Under the pieces are notes generated by a model that was given only the letters and a program-made list of their open reading frames with translations, was not told where the DNA came from and did no database searches. 64,000 nucleotides of DNA from Arthrobacter sp. C9C5 (GTDB lineage: Bacteria; Actinomycetota; Actinomycetes; Actinomycetales; Micrococcaceae). The stretch covers positions 1-64,000 of the forward strand of contig NZ_JABFMX010000019.1 of NCBI RefSeq assembly GCF_013359735.1. Reading direction: 5' to 3'. Each line of letters opens with the position of its first letter. Position 1 is the first letter of the stretch. Of this stretch, positions 18,568 through 46,844 are shown in pieces. A program made the position numbers and the translations under genes.

Positions 18568-20253
18568 GTGAGCTTTACGCAGCTTGAACGTGTATCCATC
18601 GACCGTGTTCCCATCCGCCGGGCCCTCATCTCGGTCTACGACAAGACCGGTCTGGAGGAGCTCGCGAAGGGCCTGCATGAAGCCGGCGTCAAGATCGTCT
18701 CCACCGGTTCCACCGCCAAGAAGATCGCCGCCGCAGGGATTCCGGTGCAGGAAGTCGAAGAAGTCACCGGCTCCCCGGAAATGCTGGACGGCCGCGTCAA
18801 GACCCTGCACCCGCGCGTGCACGGCGGCATCCTCGCCGACCGCCGCGTCCCGGCGCACATGAAGACGCTCGAGGACATGTCGATCGAGCCGTTCGACCTC
18901 GTCGTCGTGAACCTCTACCCCTTCGTGGAGACCGTGAAGTCGGGCGCCGCGCAGGACGACGTCGTCGAGCAGATCGACATCGGAGGTCCCGCGATGGTGC
19001 GGTCGGCCGCGAAGAACCACGCCGCCGTCGCGATCGTGGTGGATCCGGCGTCCTACGGTTCCGTGGTGGATGCGGCCTCCTCCGGCGGGTTTGACCTGAA
19101 GACCCGACGCCGGCTCGCCGCCAAGGCGTTCGCGCACACCGCGTCCTACGACACTGCCGTGGCCACCTGGACCGCCAGCCAGTTCCTCGACGAGGACGGC
19201 GACGGCGTGATCGACTGGCCCGCCTACGCCGGCCTGGCCCTGGAACGCTCCGAGGTGCTGCGCTACGGCGAAAACCCGCACCAGCAGGCCGCGCTGTACG
19301 TGGACAAGGCCGCCCCGGCCGGCATCGCCCAGGCCGACCAGCTGCACGGCAAGGCGATGAGCTACAACAACTTCGTCGACGCCGACGCCGCCCTGCGCGC
19401 CGCGTTTGACTTCGCCGAGCCCGCCGTCGCGATCATCAAGCATGCCAACCCCTGCGGCGTGGCCGTGGGTTCCGCCTCCGCGGCGGACCCGATCGCCGAC
19501 GCCCACGCGAAGGCCCACGCCTGCGACCCGGTTTCGGCGTTCGGCGGCGTGATCGCGGCCAACCGCACCGTCACAGCCGGCATGGCCCGGACCGTGGCCG
19601 GGATCTTCACCGAGGTCGTCATCGCGCCGGGCTTCGAGGACGAGGCCGTGGAGATCCTTTCCAAGAAGAAGAACATCCGCCTCCTGACCCTGCCCGAGGG
19701 CTACGGCCGCTACCCGACCGAGTTCCGCCAGGTCTCCGGCGGCATGCTGGTCCAGGCCACGGACAAGGTCGACGCCGAGGGCGACAACCCGGCCAACTGG
19801 ACGCTCGCTGCGGGAGAGGCCGCAGACGCCGCCACGCTGGCCGACCTCGCCTTCGCCTGGACGGCCTGCCGCGCGGCCAAGTCCAACGCGATCCTGCTGG
19901 CCGCCGACGGTGCCGCCGTCGGCATCGGCATGGGCCAAGTCAATCGACTCGACTCCTGCCGGCTCGCCGTCGAGCGGGCCAACACCCTGGGTGTCACCGT
20001 GGAGTCCAACGTCGAGGGTGCAGGCGGGGCCTCGAACGCCGACGCCGCCGGAGCTCCGGAACGGGCCCGCGGTGCCGTTGCGGCCTCGGACGCGTTCTTC
20101 CCATTCGCCGACGGCTTGCAGATCCTGATCGACGCCGGCGTCCGCGCCGTCGTGCAGCCCGGGGGATCCGTCCGCGACGAGGAAGTCATCGCCGCAGCCA
20201 ACGCCGCCGGCATCACGATGTACTTCACGGGCGCCCGCCACTTCTTCCACTAG
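18568..20253 (+). CDS. purH: Bifunctional AICAR transformylase/IMP cyclohydrolase
   Basis: 561-aa PurH catalysing the last two steps of IMP synthesis. The N-terminal MGS-like cyclohydrolase domain (about 10-200) begins [17 protein letters not shown]. The C-terminal transformylase domain includes [27 protein letters not shown] with the catalytic Lys-His, and DAFFPFADG. It is slightly longer than the 530-aa enterobacterial enzyme. The GTG start has GACGGAGA upstream. It ends in a strong terminator whose stem shares a core with the adjacent 115-bp repeats. No ZTP riboswitch was found upstream. Confidence 0.95.
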
Positions 20254-20280: not shown

Positions 20281-20325
20281 AATGGACATGCCCTCCCTAT
20301 CCGGGAGGGCATGTCCATTTTTTGT
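20281..20325 (+). terminator. purH terminator
   Basis: A perfect 17-bp stem (AATGGACATGCCCTCCC and its complement) with a TATCC loop runs straight into a T tract. The GGACATGC core recurs in the outer arms of the neighbouring repeat array. Confidence 0.9.
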
Positions 20326-20386: not shown

Positions 20387-20866
20387 GGGGGACATGCTCA
20401 TTCTTCGCAGCCAGGGGTGGGCACTAGCCAGAGGTCAGCGGGACATGCTCATCCTTCGCAGCCAGGGGTGGGCATATAAGGATTATGTCCACTGGCCGGC
20501 GCGTGCAGTGGGCATGTCCCCTGTGAGCGCCCGGAACCTGGCGGCCGGGTCAGGGGGACATGCTCATCCTTCGCAGCCAGGGGTGGGCATATAAGGACTA
20601 TGCCCACTGGCCGGCGCGTGCAGTGGGCACGTCCCCTGTGTGCGCCCGGACCCTGGCGGCCGGGTCAGGGGGACATGCTCATCCTTCGCAGCCACGAGTG
20701 GGCATTTGGGGATTATGTCCACTGGCCGGCGCGTGCAGTGGGCATGTCCCCTGTGTGCGCCCGGACCCTGGCGGCCGGGTCAGGGGGACATGCTCATCCT
20801 TCGCAGCCACGAGTGGGCATATGGGGATTATGTCCAGTGGCCGGCCCGTGCGATGGGCATGTCCGG
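20387..20866. repeat. Tandem array of a 115-bp palindromic repeat (four full units plus one truncated)
   Basis: The motif GACATGCTCATCCTTCGCAG recurs with its ACATG at 20443, 20558, 20673 and 20788, exactly 115 bases apart, and a truncated unit starts at 20387. Each unit is bounded by GGGGACATGC and its complement GCATGTCCCC (C-to-T or C-to-G changes in the outer copies). It contains an inner inverted pair GTGGGCATA/TATGYCCAC; the C/T variation keeps G-C or G-U pairing. The period is not a multiple of three and the translations drift, so it is non-coding. Related sequence occurs at 10671-10755. Confidence 0.9.
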
Positions 20867-20897: not shown

Positions 20898-20958
20898 GCA
20901 ACGCGGGGTCACTTGCCGCCCTGTCGAGGGGGATAGGTGGCAAGTGACCCCGCGTTGC
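20898..20958. terminator. Long hairpin after the protease gene
   Basis: CAACGCGGGGTCACTTGCC pairs perfectly over 19 bases with GGCAAGTGACCCCGCGTTG across a 21-base loop, 44 bases beyond the protease stop on the minus strand. Probable terminator; its sequence is unrelated to the 115-bp repeat. Confidence 0.6.
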
Positions 20959-21001: not shown

Positions 21002-21976
21002 TTAGGAGGCTGCGGCGGTGCTGTAGGCCTGCTGGATCACCGAGCCCCAGTAGGGGCCGTACATCACGGTGGAGCGGCTGCCGTAGCCGTAGCTGTTGAT
21101 GGAGTTCTGGTAACCAGAGGAGCTGGTGCCGATGAACCAGGGGCCGCCGGAGGATCCGCCGGTCATGTCGCAGGGGATGCCCTGGGCGTTGAACTGGGGA
21201 TTGTTGGGATCATCGGAGGCCGGGCCGGTGCAGCTCACCAGCGACTGGCCGTCGAACGGCGCCGCGGCCGGGTAGCCGTAGGACTTGTAGGTGAGGCCGC
21301 GCGCGGCGTTGAACTGGACGCCGGAGGCACCGACGACGTCGGACAGGTTCTGTCCGTTCAGCGGGGACACGACGGCGAATCCGGTGTCGTACTGCATATC
21401 GCCGGCCGAGCTCCACTGGGTCGTGGTGTAGAGCGCCTTGGCCGCCCACTTGCCGTACGGGGCGGCGCCGTTGAGGTACGCGGGGACGAAGACGAAGTTG
21501 GTGGCGAAGGCACCCGGGCCCTCATTGACGCAGTGGCCGGCCGTGGAGACGGTGCTCTTATTGGTGGAGGCCACCGAGTTGCCCGAGCAGACGTAGTTGC
21601 TGCCGCCCATCGTGAAAAACACCTTGCCGATGTTGGAGACCGGCGACTCGGCGGCGTGCAGGGTGGGCTTGCCGTTGGCGGCCTTGCCCGAGATCTGGGT
21701 GCTCGAGCCCTTCTCCACGGTGGCGGCCGAGGACTTGTTCCCGCGGGCCAAAGCCTTGTCCGCCAGCACGTCGCCGGGGATGGCCGATTTCATCCGCTCG
21801 GGCGTCCAGTAGTCGGCGGCGCGCGAGCCGTCGACGGACTGGCTGGCCACCTGGGGAGCCTTCTTGTCCTGCGCCGCAACGGGCGAGGCGGTGGCGCCGC
21901 CGGCCGCGCAGATCGCCAGGAGGGCCGCGGCGGAGAGGCTGAGGAGGCTGGTGGCCAGAGTCTTGGGTGTTCTCAT
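21002..21976 (-). CDS. Secreted trypsin-like serine protease
   Basis: 324-aa exported S1-family peptidase. Residues 1-30 form a Sec signal peptide (LSLSAAALLAICAAGGATA). A roughly 75-residue pro-region precedes the catalytic domain. The triad is visible as STAGHC (His), MQYDTGFAVV (Asp) and TGGSSGGPW (Ser), with cysteine pairs around the His and Ser segments. AGGA lies ahead of the ATG. Its promoter carries a palindrome between the -35 and -10 elements, so it is probably regulated. Likely role is extracellular protein degradation. Confidence 0.9.
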   Translation of the reverse strand: MRTPKTLATSLLSLSAAALLAICAAGGATASPVAAQDKKAPQVASQSVDGSRAADYWTPERMKSAIPGDVLADKALARGNKSSAATVEKGSSTQISGKAANGKPTLHAAESPVSNIGKVFFTMGGSNYVCSGNSVASTNKSTVSTAGHCVNEGPGAFATNFVFVPAYLNGAAPYGKWAAKALYTTTQWSSAGDMQYDTGFAVVSPLNGQNLSDVVGASGVQFNAARGLTYKSYGYPAAAPFDGQSLVSCTGPASDDPNNPQFNAQGIPCDMTGGSSGGPWFIGTSSSGYQNSINSYGYGSRSTVMYGPYWGSVIQQAYSTAAAS

Positions 21977-27693: not shown

Positions 27694-28965
27694 CTAGTCA
27701 GGAGAAGATCCGGGATCGGCGGCGACAGCAGGATGTACGTGCTGGAGCGGGCCGCTGATGGGGTCGGAGCCCATTGGGGGAATGAGGAAGAACGCGCTTG
27801 GCGTCCACGCAGCAGCGCCGGAAGGCCCGCTGGCCGTGGAACCGCTGCCGGACCCCGACCCGGGGGTCGCCGGGAGGGCAGCAGGGGCAGGCAGCCCGGT
27901 GTCGCCGCCACGGGGCCGGGGCGCGTCATTGCCGCCCGTGGGCGCCGCGGGGGCACCGTCTCCGGTTGACCGGGGGCTCGCAGGAGTTCGGCTCCCTGCG
28001 GCCAAGGCACCCGGCATACTGCCGCGGGCCGGGACTTCCGGCAGGGTCAGGGTGGAGACGTAGCCGTAGCTCGCCGCGGGGTAATCGGCCTGAAGGCCCT
28101 GCGGTTGGTCCGCAGCCGCCGGGCTTTGCTTCAGCAAAGGATCAGCGCTGGCCGGAGTGACTGCGACGGTCTTCCGTGGCGGGACAAGCGGTGCACGCCC
28201 GGCGCCGAGCTGGCCCGGGACGACCACCGGCGCCGGTATCACCGCAGGCAGGGTTGCCGGGGGCATCGTGCCGGGGGCGGATTCGCTCACTGGGGGCGTT
28301 GGCTCGGGAGCAGGCGGGACAGTCGGGAGGTCTCCGGCGCCCGTGTCGGGAGCGGTGACCGGAACAGCGGGGTCCGTAACCGGATCCGTAACCGGTGCCG
28401 GATCACTGGAAGGGGCGGGAGCAGGTTCTCCGGGCGGGTCCGGCGCGGGAGCAGGTTCTCCGGGCGGGACCGGCGCGGGAGCCGGGGAGGGCTCGGCCGG
28501 GGGACTGGCGACGGGTTCACTGACCGGTGGAACGGGGGCTGGAGTCTCAGCAACCTGGGAGGCCGGTTCGGGCTGGGCAACCGGCAACACGGGTTGCGGG
28601 ACGACAGGGGGCGCGTCGGGCTCCGCAAGCGGCACGACGGGTTGCACGACGACGGGCTCCGGGACAACCGGCAGGGGGACAGTCGGAGGCGAAACCGGCG
28701 CCGGGGCCGCGGTGACGGCGGGCGCGGTTGGAGCTGGAGCCGACGGTGCCGGGCTTACGGGTGCTATCGGGTCATCGGCTTTCGGGAATTGGATCATGGT
28801 CACGACGGCCGAACCGGGGGCGGGTGGAACCGCGCCGGAGACCCTGAGTTCGTCGGCGTTGGCCGTGGCCGCGGAGAGCGCCAGCCAGGTCAGCCCGGCT
28901 CCCAAGGCCAGCAGCCCCCGTTGCAGGAAGCGGCGCGCACGGGGACGGGTTGTTGCAGATTCCAT
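27694..28965 (-). CDS. Secreted Pro/Ala-rich protein, unknown function
   Basis: 423 aa. A signal peptide (RRFLQRGLLALGAGLTWLALSAATANA) is followed by a short folded-looking start and then about 250 residues dominated by PAP, PVP and PEP repeats. A second half is less repetitive and ends in a distinctive segment (AAAWTPSAFFLIPPMGSDP ... DPGSSPD). The ATG at 28965 is chosen because GGGGAGG lies 10 bases before it. The Pro-rich part may span the cell wall. Its location beside a surface kinase and lipoprotein is suggestive only. Confidence 0.7.
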   Translation of the reverse strand: MESATTRPRARRFLQRGLLALGAGLTWLALSAATANADELRVSGAVPPAPGSAVVTMIQFPKADDPIAPVSPAPSAPAPTAPAVTAAPAPVSPPTVPLPVVPEPVVVQPVVPLAEPDAPPVVPQPVLPVAQPEPASQVAETPAPVPPVSEPVASPPAEPSPAPAPVPPGEPAPAPDPPGEPAPAPSSDPAPVTDPVTDPAVPVTAPDTGAGDLPTVPPAPEPTPPVSESAPGTMPPATLPAVIPAPVVVPGQLGAGRAPLVPPRKTVAVTPASADPLLKQSPAAADQPQGLQADYPAASYGYVSTLTLPEVPARGSMPGALAAGSRTPASPRSTGDGAPAAPTGGNDAPRPRGGDTGLPAPAALPATPGSGSGSGSTASGPSGAAAWTPSAFFLIPPMGSDPISGPLQHVHPAVAADPGSSPD

Positions 28966-45917: not shown

Positions 45918-45955
45918 GGCTCCAGTTAAGGGCGGAGCCGGACCGAAGACAAGCC

Positions 45956-45990
45956 TTAGCTGAACGCCCTTAGCTGAACGCCCTTAGCTG
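45956..45990 (-). repeat. 14-bp tandem repeat of the purU stop region
   Basis: TTCAGCTAAGGGCG is repeated so that TAA occurs at 45986, 45972 and 45958 on the minus strand. Because 14 is not a multiple of three, the three stops fall in all three reading frames. Confidence 0.85.
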
Positions 45991-46844
45991 AAAACAACCG
46001 TCCGGTTGCCGTCCAGCAGCACCCGGTGCTCGGCATGCCACTGGACGGCCTGGGCGAGCGTGCGGCCCTCGACGTCGCGGCCCATCTGGACAAACTGCTC
46101 GGCGGTGCGCCGGTGGTCCACCCGGATAACTTCCTGCTCGATGATCGGGCCCTCGTCCAGGGCAGCGGTGACGTAGTGCGCCGTGGCGCCAATGAGCTTC
46201 ACGCCGCGGGCATGGGCCTGGTGGTACGGCTTGGCGCCCTTGAAGGAGGGCAGGAAGGAATGGTGGATGTTGATGGCCTTGCCGGTGAGCTCCGTGCACA
46301 TCTCGTCGGAGAGGATCTGCATGTACCGGGCCAGCACCGTGAGCTCGATGTCGTGCTCGGCCATGAGCTTGCGCAGCGCGTCCTCGGCCTCCACCTTGGT
46401 CTCCCGGGTCACGGGGATGTGGTGGAACGGGATGCCGTAGAACTCGGCCAGGCCCGCGAGGTCCCGGTGGTTGGAGACGATGGCCGGGATCTCGATCGGC
46501 AGGGTGCCCGAGCGCTGCAGGAACAGCAGGTCGTTGAGGCAGTGCGCGGAGGTGCTCGCCATCAGCAGGGTACGGACCTTCCGTCCGGCCGGGTTGAGGC
46601 TCCACTGCATGCCGAAGGCCTGGGCCACCGGTTCAAGCGCGGCGTGCAACTCGGCCGGCGCGGCCGCCGTCGTCGCCTCGACCCGCATGAAGAACGTTCC
46701 GGTGCCCTGGCTGCCGTACTGCTGCGAGTCCGTAATATTGCAGCCGGCCACGAGGAGGGCCCCGGCCACGGCGTGCACGATCCCGGGCCGGTCCGGGCAG
46801 GAGAGGGTAAGAACGTAGGAGGCAGTCAGCTGGTCTTCAGTCAC
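45984..46844 (-). CDS. purU: Formyltetrahydrofolate deformylase
   Basis: 286-aa enzyme that hydrolyses 10-formyl-THF to formate and THF. An N-terminal ACT domain (about 8-85, LTLSCPDRPGIVHAVAG) precedes a PurN-like formyltransferase domain with NIHHSFLPSFKGAKPYHQA (catalytic Asn/His) and ALDEGPIIEQEV (Asp region). In known family members the ACT domain senses glycine/methionine. It is divergent from the riboswitch-controlled glyA-folD pair, so the locus groups genes balancing folate one-carbon units. GTG start; the ribosome site is weak. Confidence 0.93.
   Translation of the reverse strand: MTEDQLTASYVLTLSCPDRPGIVHAVAGALLVAGCNITDSQQYGSQGTGTFFMRVEATTAAAPAELHAALEPVAQAFGMQWSLNPAGRKVRTLLMASTSAHCLNDLLFLQRSGTLPIEIPAIVSNHRDLAGLAEFYGIPFHHIPVTRETKVEAEDALRKLMAEHDIELTVLARYMQILSDEMCTELTGKAINIHHSFLPSFKGAKPYHQAHARGVKLIGATAHYVTAALDEGPIIEQEVIRVDHRRTAEQFVQMGRDVEGRTLAQAVQWHAEHRVLLDGNRTVVFS

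Follow-up and report, generated by a model that had tools for sequence, protein, structure and literature searches.

A tandem palindrome array downstream of purH in Arthrobacter belongs to a dispersed family of rigidly spaced intergenic sites and may serve as a cluster of protein docking sites

A repeat array between two convergent genes

The stretch of DNA analyzed here, referred to as the window, comprises 64,000 nucleotides of a contig of Arthrobacter sp. C9C5 (NZ_JABFMX010000019.1). In it, purH, which had a match in each congeneric genome searched (61 of 61), converges on a gene for a secreted trypsin-like protease, and the gap between the two holds a tandem array for which TRF returned a period of 115, 3.8 copies, 94% matches, and 0 indels. 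The features of the locus are as follows.

18568 to 20253, plus strand: purH, 561 aa, the upstream convergent neighbor (named by inspection and in the original prediction)
20281 to 20319, plus strand: purH-side hairpin, its stem on two 10-mers (20284 to 20293 and 20307 to 20316), running into TTTTTT
20390 to 20424, plus strand: truncated element with 10-mer GGACATGCTC, a 19-bp spacer, and half an inner site, GGGCAC
20433 to 20864, plus strand: tandem array, period 115 (TRF)
20441 to 20519, plus strand: composite element 1, 79 bp, built as 10-mer, 19 bp, inner split site (20470 to 20490), 19 bp, 10-mer
20556 to 20634, plus strand: composite element 2, 79 bp, inner site at 20585 to 20605, right 10-mer GGGCACGTCC
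20671 to 20749, plus strand: composite element 3, 79 bp, inner site at 20700 to 20720, left arm GGGCATT
20786 to 20864, plus strand: composite element 4, 79 bp, inner site at 20815 to 20835
21002 to 21976, minus strand: gene for a secreted trypsin-like protease, 324 aa, the downstream convergent neighbor (named by inspection)

As originally predicted, four 115-bp units and a truncated one lie between purH and the protease gene; TRF and the element starts at 20441, 20556, 20671, and 20786 agree on this. The prediction was also right to set aside a coding repeat and a CRISPR, both of which are ruled out by the period of 115 and the lack of unique, CRISPR-type spacers. Since the units are 87 to 95% identical to unit 1 (95% for unit 2, 93% for unit 3, and 87% for the last, partial unit), the tandem step was recent, and the tandem copies probably arose by slippage. 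The inverted pairs that were said to close the units are present, with the correction that the left 10-mer reads GGACATGCTC in all four units and is an imperfect palindrome; in unit 1 the two bases before it are CG instead of GG. The statement that changes in the inner pair preserve G-C or G-U pairing does not hold in units 3 and 4: GGGCATT places T opposite T in unit 3, and TATGTCCAG places G opposite G in unit 4.

Hairpins flank the array on both sides. The one next to purH (17-nt arms, fully complementary) was judged by inspection to be the purH terminator, and the one on the protease side, at 20898 to 20958, has 23-nt arms that are 96% complementary. The terminator scan called neither of them.

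One architecture recurring across the genus

The loci read share a single architecture: two outer 10-mers and between them, 19 bp from each, one split 10-mer with a gap of 9 bp. The 10-mers are 10-bp palindromes of the GGRCATGYCC type, and the inner site is the same palindrome split open, which makes it about one helical turn longer than the compact form. The consensus of the 79-bp element is GGACATGYYC-N19-GGRCATA-N7-TATGYCC-N19-GGRCATGTCC; simpler arrays carry a 10-mer every 29 bp. In the sample from the host genome, neighboring sites lie 69 bp (31 cases), 29 bp (20 cases), 32 to 34 bp (13 cases), or 45 to 46 bp (7 cases) apart. The 19-bp spacing is exact in 148 of 158 flanks, 6 others having no 10-mer in range and 4 having one elsewhere; this count comes from 79 copies chosen without regard to spacing, and an earlier one on 48 copies was partly circular, with some loci picked with one 19-bp spacer.

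The spacer letters, for their part, drift toward saturation, while spacer length hardly changes. Where the neighboring proteins are 70 to 79% identical, spacer identity is 0.47 (0.43 between unrelated copies) and core identity 0.91 (0.88 between unrelated copies), and spacer identity rises to 0.54 at 80 to 89% and to 0.61 at 90 to 99% protein identity, all of these locus values being those of the best of several pairs. Constraint falls on the sites and their spacing and mostly not on the letters of the spacers. The inner gap is not wholly fixed: besides the genome G024, described below, 11 genomes have matches with an 8-bp gap, at most 5 per strand.

In the 3.86-Mb genome of the host (G000), a BLAST search with one unit listed 60 matches, and matches with an E value of <0.001 lie on contigs C5, C7, C10, C22, C33, C44, C46, and C47. 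GGRCATGYCC occurs 174 times in this genome, versus 10 times for a reversed control; in 36 other genomes of the genus it numbers 118 to 235 in carriers and G024 and 44 to 89 in element-free genomes, so part of the host's 174 copies is background. Of the 206 genomes of the genus, 56 have the inner site GGRCATA-N7-TATGYCC (1 to 32 copies; never more than 1 for the reversed control); the 29-bp pair of 10-mers likewise occurs in 56 of the 206 (control, 0). Both patterns occur in 54 of these genomes and neither in 148, one of which (G200) has 8-bp-gap matches, and the distribution across the genus is nearly all or none. In a sample of the family, the left 10-mer plus inner site was present in 6 of 24 genomes of the same genus and absent from all 271 genomes that represent 31 other genera. 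Among the matches listed, 113 of 114 named records with this left-plus-inner pattern are titled Arthrobacter or Pseudarthrobacter. Viral contigs held 0 exact matches to it, and plasmid and phage records gave no BLAST match to the array.

The repeat belongs to a family of short palindromes, rigidly spaced, that occupy fixed intergenic places in about a quarter of sampled Arthrobacter-group species, and the idea of a dispersed family recurring in the genus is borne out, the unit being present elsewhere. A local slippage duplication without function would account for the high identity between units but is very improbable as an explanation of the element, which recurs in the same 79-bp form in 56 of 206 congeners and at many loci unrelated to one another, its cores being kept and its spacers near saturation. 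For the element, as opposed to its tandem copies, that recurrence refutes slippage.

In a tree built from the purH DNA sequences of 59 genomes, which omits G030 and G075, where purH is split, the carriers fall in two groups. Two carrier clades are not upheld, a single carrier clade not being rejected (p-AU = 0.57), and this one-gene tree neither shows nor rejects a single clade. The only other title among the named records listed is that of a metagenome contig assigned to Ramlibacter (L213, JAQGMS010000365.1), which carries the element and had no BLASTN match to the other element loci compared; either misbinning or transfer may be at work. Among the papers listed in searches of the open-licence literature, none was seen to describe the element.

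Placement of the clusters relative to genes

None of 167 composite clusters overlaps a called gene, genes having been called with an in-house script based on codon usage, for which two host contigs served as the training set. With 36 of the 167 left unclassified at locus edges, 131 could be placed, 68 of them in convergent, 55 in tandem, and 8 in divergent gaps, compared with 96, 311, and 141, respectively, of 548 background gaps of at least 100 bp; this background includes gaps that hold the element, and clusters that occupy one locus in different species count separately. Grouped by flanking protein family, the 167 clusters represent 46 places, of which 37 could be placed (17 convergent, 16 tandem, and 4 divergent), and 27 of the 46 hold clusters from at least two genome labels, where two labels may in some cases denote one genome. 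In tandem gaps, 47 of 55 clusters are nearer the end of the upstream gene. A promoter-linked operator array does not match this placement, with divergent gaps holding 8 of 131 clusters and 4 of 37 locus groups.

An intrinsic terminator precedes the element at only 14 of 125 facing gene ends (1.4 in shuffles), so many elements may be transcribed, and a general claim that they are untranscribed was dropped on this account. A close pair of 10-mers was seen in 21 of 125 gaps. Single exact 10-mers do fall in called genes, in 10 of 17 cases on contig C11 and 0 of 6 on C10 (counts from an earlier version of the gene-calling script), and 4 of the 10 in-gene copies on C11 read GGGCATGCCC.

On the scale of the chromosome, the 20% opposite dnaA holds 7 of 99 clusters where 19.8 would be expected, in eight genomes of known dnaA position that are not independent and share loci; this depletion is weak, and it was not seen in G072 and G182. 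A factor was also sought among the neighbors of the clusters and did not emerge there: the 298 flanking proteins fall into 109 families, the 22 largest of which look, by eye, like ordinary genes, one of them for a CRP-like regulator.

Folding potential of the element

The original prediction took the changes in the inner pair as a hint of selection on RNA. This fails across sets of 43, 48, and 79 nonredundant copies (drawn by threshold from 101, 225, and 275 copies, respectively), in which paired positions vary independently; substitutions ignore the predicted pairs, the second of two outcomes that together had been named beforehand as reducing the repeat to a local slippage duplication. With 43 copies, pairing was 0.406 in the left spacer (0.400 in column shuffles), 0.403 in the right spacer (0.424 in the shuffles), and 0.415 between the two spacers (0.432 in the shuffles). 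The set of 48 gave the same null picture, the largest excess being that of one outer 10-mer with the other (z = 2.0), and one arrangement fell below chance (z = -2.5). With 79 copies, none of 1,485 column pairs exceeded the shuffle maximum (mutual information, 0.322 versus 0.338); the best antidiagonal reached a z of 1.48, and the left-spacer hairpin gave -2.2. The spread of the whole-element test is about 0.011, and to judge from it a rise in pairing of a few percentage points should have shown. At the variable positions of the inner arms, read on the transcribed strand in tandem contexts, the counts were 41 A-T, 21 G-T, 12 A-C, and 4 G-C, which is close to independence; counted by clusters, G-U was not significantly favored over A-C (12 versus 8; P = 0.50).

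Single units have better folds than their shuffled versions (plus strand, z of -2.2 to -3.2; minus strand, z of -1.2 to -3.0), which we put down to the palindromes themselves. A closing stem and a 7-bp inner stem are possible, since invariant cores give no covariation signal. Rfam returned no family at gathering score and six weak matches, the best of which (30.3 bits against a cutoff of 128) sits at the protease-side hairpin, and the aligned flanks have no conserved T-run beside the element.

That the elements act in mRNA as 3'-end hairpins, as terminators or exonuclease barriers, would be in keeping with this folding, with the position of 47 of 55 tandem clusters near the upstream gene end, with the purH hairpin that is built on the same 10-mers, with the 21 of 125 gaps that contain a close 10-mer pair, and with some 29-bp pairs whose spacers are fully complementary. 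We nevertheless consider this function decidedly unlikely, as neither spacers nor arms covary, the transcribed strand is unbiased in the G-U versus A-C comparison, and both the T-run in the flanks and an Rfam match at gathering score are lacking.

A change of inner spacing in one genome

In G024 the 9-bp inner pattern has 0 matches, and the 8-bp pattern has 16 on the forward strand and 19 on the reverse strand. Reading the purH locus and ten more regions among the matches listed gave 14 elements in 11 clusters, and all 14 have an 8-bp inner gap; region L300 yielded no element under the reading rule used. Eight of the 11 clusters lie at loci where G066 has 9-bp clusters, and 7 of the 11 at such loci of G000, with the qualifications that some of these matches are based on one flanking protein, that one locus accounts for two of the 11 clusters, and that the comparison covers the fetched regions only (between 14 and 18 clusters each in G000, G066, and G012). 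G012, which belongs to the other carrier group of the tree, has 5 of 18 clusters at loci in common with G000.

Recopying from a new master since the split would leave similar spacers within G024. Its spacer identity across different loci is 0.483, similar to that in other genomes (0.495 to 0.518), and its spacers therefore seem not to have been copied from one master. At common loci the best spacer pairs reach 0.66 to 0.79 for G000 and G066, 0.45 to 0.66 for G000 and G024, and 0.37 to 0.58 for G066 and G024, each value being the highest of several from fetched regions that may hold more than one locus. In the sister genome G018, the array is absent from the purH locus and the 10-mer hairpin is kept; genome-wide, the counts in G018 are 0 for composite sites with either gap and 1 for the 29-bp pair.

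Both the switch in G024 and the absence in G018 would be accounted for if one trans-acting reader had changed or been lost; other causes, such as fast turnover, are possible. We read the G024 switch as co-evolution with a putative trans-acting, geometry-sensitive DNA-binding factor. If this reading is true, the two genomes constitute a natural experiment in site-factor co-evolution, and a comparison of gene content among G000, G066, G024, and G018 should point to the factor gene.

Discussion

In outline, the family resembles REPINs, REPs, and BIMEs in its short extragenic palindromes, inverted ends at a fixed distance, tandem clusters, and convergent or 3'-end location. Its inverted conserved ends, extragenic throughout the composite clusters, are 69 bp apart in 31 neighbor pairs, and for the GI REPIN of P. 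fluorescens the available part of the source gives 71 bp (PMC3116915). The same part describes REPIN spacers as holding to their length more closely than to their sequence, as do those of the present element (PMC3116915), and REPs are described, in the part of the report at hand, as extragenic clusters that prefer 3' ends and convergent gaps (PMC3733652), a preference that the composite elements share along with their clustering in tandem. On these grounds the element might be a REPIN-like nonautonomous mobile palindrome, spread by a trans-acting transposase and now mostly inherited vertically, a proposal that we regard as unlikely. A RAYT-driven REP was rejected on the finding of 0 matches to Y1_Tnp (PF01797) in the host; among 59 genomes 3 had a match, 1 of these in the genus, and the four fetched Y1_Tnp loci, of 2.0 to 3.4 kb each, held no element. 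Compensatory changes, common in REPINs according to the available part of the source (PMC3116915), are not seen in the spacers of the element. Further, unlike the RAYT-associated elements, the present one has a third conserved site, the split palindrome, in its middle and occupies loci common to several species, and the G024 switch was seen at common loci without homogenized spacers, all of which speaks against such mobility. The ends differ as well: REP palindromes carry a GTAG- or CGTC-type tetranucleotide, as far as the available parts of the reports go (PMC8266576, PMC3733652), whereas the consensus of 116 copies of the element has GGAC. If the element were REPIN-like after all, such a family in a host without a RAYT match would call for a new enzyme. 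A study that counts palindromes in Arthrobacter livingstonensis gives no consensus in the part of the paper at hand (PMC12306157).

On balance, and with moderate confidence, we favor the view that the array is a cluster of sites recognized as duplex DNA by a putative lineage-specific, trans-acting DNA-binding factor. To judge from the sequence comparisons, the element would behave more like a set of protein docking sites than like a folded RNA; among the guesses made at the outset, a protein-binding array fits best and a REP-like element fits in outline, and the hint of selection on RNA is not supported. We infer a dimeric or oligomeric protein that would bind the half-sites side by side to form one rigid nucleoprotein unit, with tandem units raising its occupancy. 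Sites at gene 3' ends or between convergent genes would disturb few promoters and could be inherited at common loci. Where the factor changed, as may have happened in G024, the sites would have changed along with it, and where it was lost, as perhaps in G018, they would have gone.

As to the purpose of such a complex, a first guess is that the bound array marks, anchors, or insulates chromosome segments, and a role in chromosome organization is possible. If that were true, a common soil genus would have an undescribed DNA-binding factor by which tens of loci are organized or insulated. SlmA-binding sites, Noc-binding sites, and matS are sets of chromosome-organizing palindromes, mostly single short sites, of which there are tens per chromosome and which are read as duplex DNA, a likeness to the present family. 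SlmA and Noc sites are depleted at the terminus; such a depletion would be a further likeness, and the one observed here is weak. Unlike these single sites, the present ones form composite, rigid arrays for which the factor is putative. A more far-reaching conjecture, to which we give little weight, is that of putative docking sites that are locked in geometry, spread chromosome-wide over quiet common loci away from the terminus, and served by a reader that can switch their spacing throughout a genome, which together would make up a chromosome-organizing system outside the ParB, Noc, SlmA, and MatP kinds. GGRCATGYCC also fits the consensus of the p53 response element, RRRCWWGYYY; p53 being a eukaryotic factor, we see in this a coincidence of letters and claim no relation.

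Several hairpins and repeats were noticed in passing. The hairpin downstream of purH, in carriers as well as in the element-free G018, consists of two family 10-mers in the arrangement GGACATGCCC-TCCC-loop-GGGA-GGGCATGTCC; besides the window (20281 to 20319), a hairpin on family 10-mers follows purH at loci L055, L061, L064, L067, and L071, and many noncarriers have an unrelated hairpin of the GACGGCGCCCGTCC type there. Some period-29 pairs differ from the rest of the family in that their spacers are complementary over all or nearly all of their length (G032 C2:47048, G116 C3:228046, G083 C12:212438, G088 C10:31033, and G124 C1:1216486), and these spacers differ between species with their complementarity kept; like the purH hairpin, such pairs are possibly terminators that adopted the 10-mers. 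Sequence similar to the protease-side hairpin (20898 to 20958) is present in G066, G018, and G024, and ACGCGGGGYC has few matches in the two host contigs, so that the hairpin is not obviously a dispersed repeat. Elsewhere in the window, TRF found a 14-bp unit in 2.8 perfect copies at 45954 to 45992 and a 30-bp unit in 2.3 copies (97%) at 28415 to 28482.
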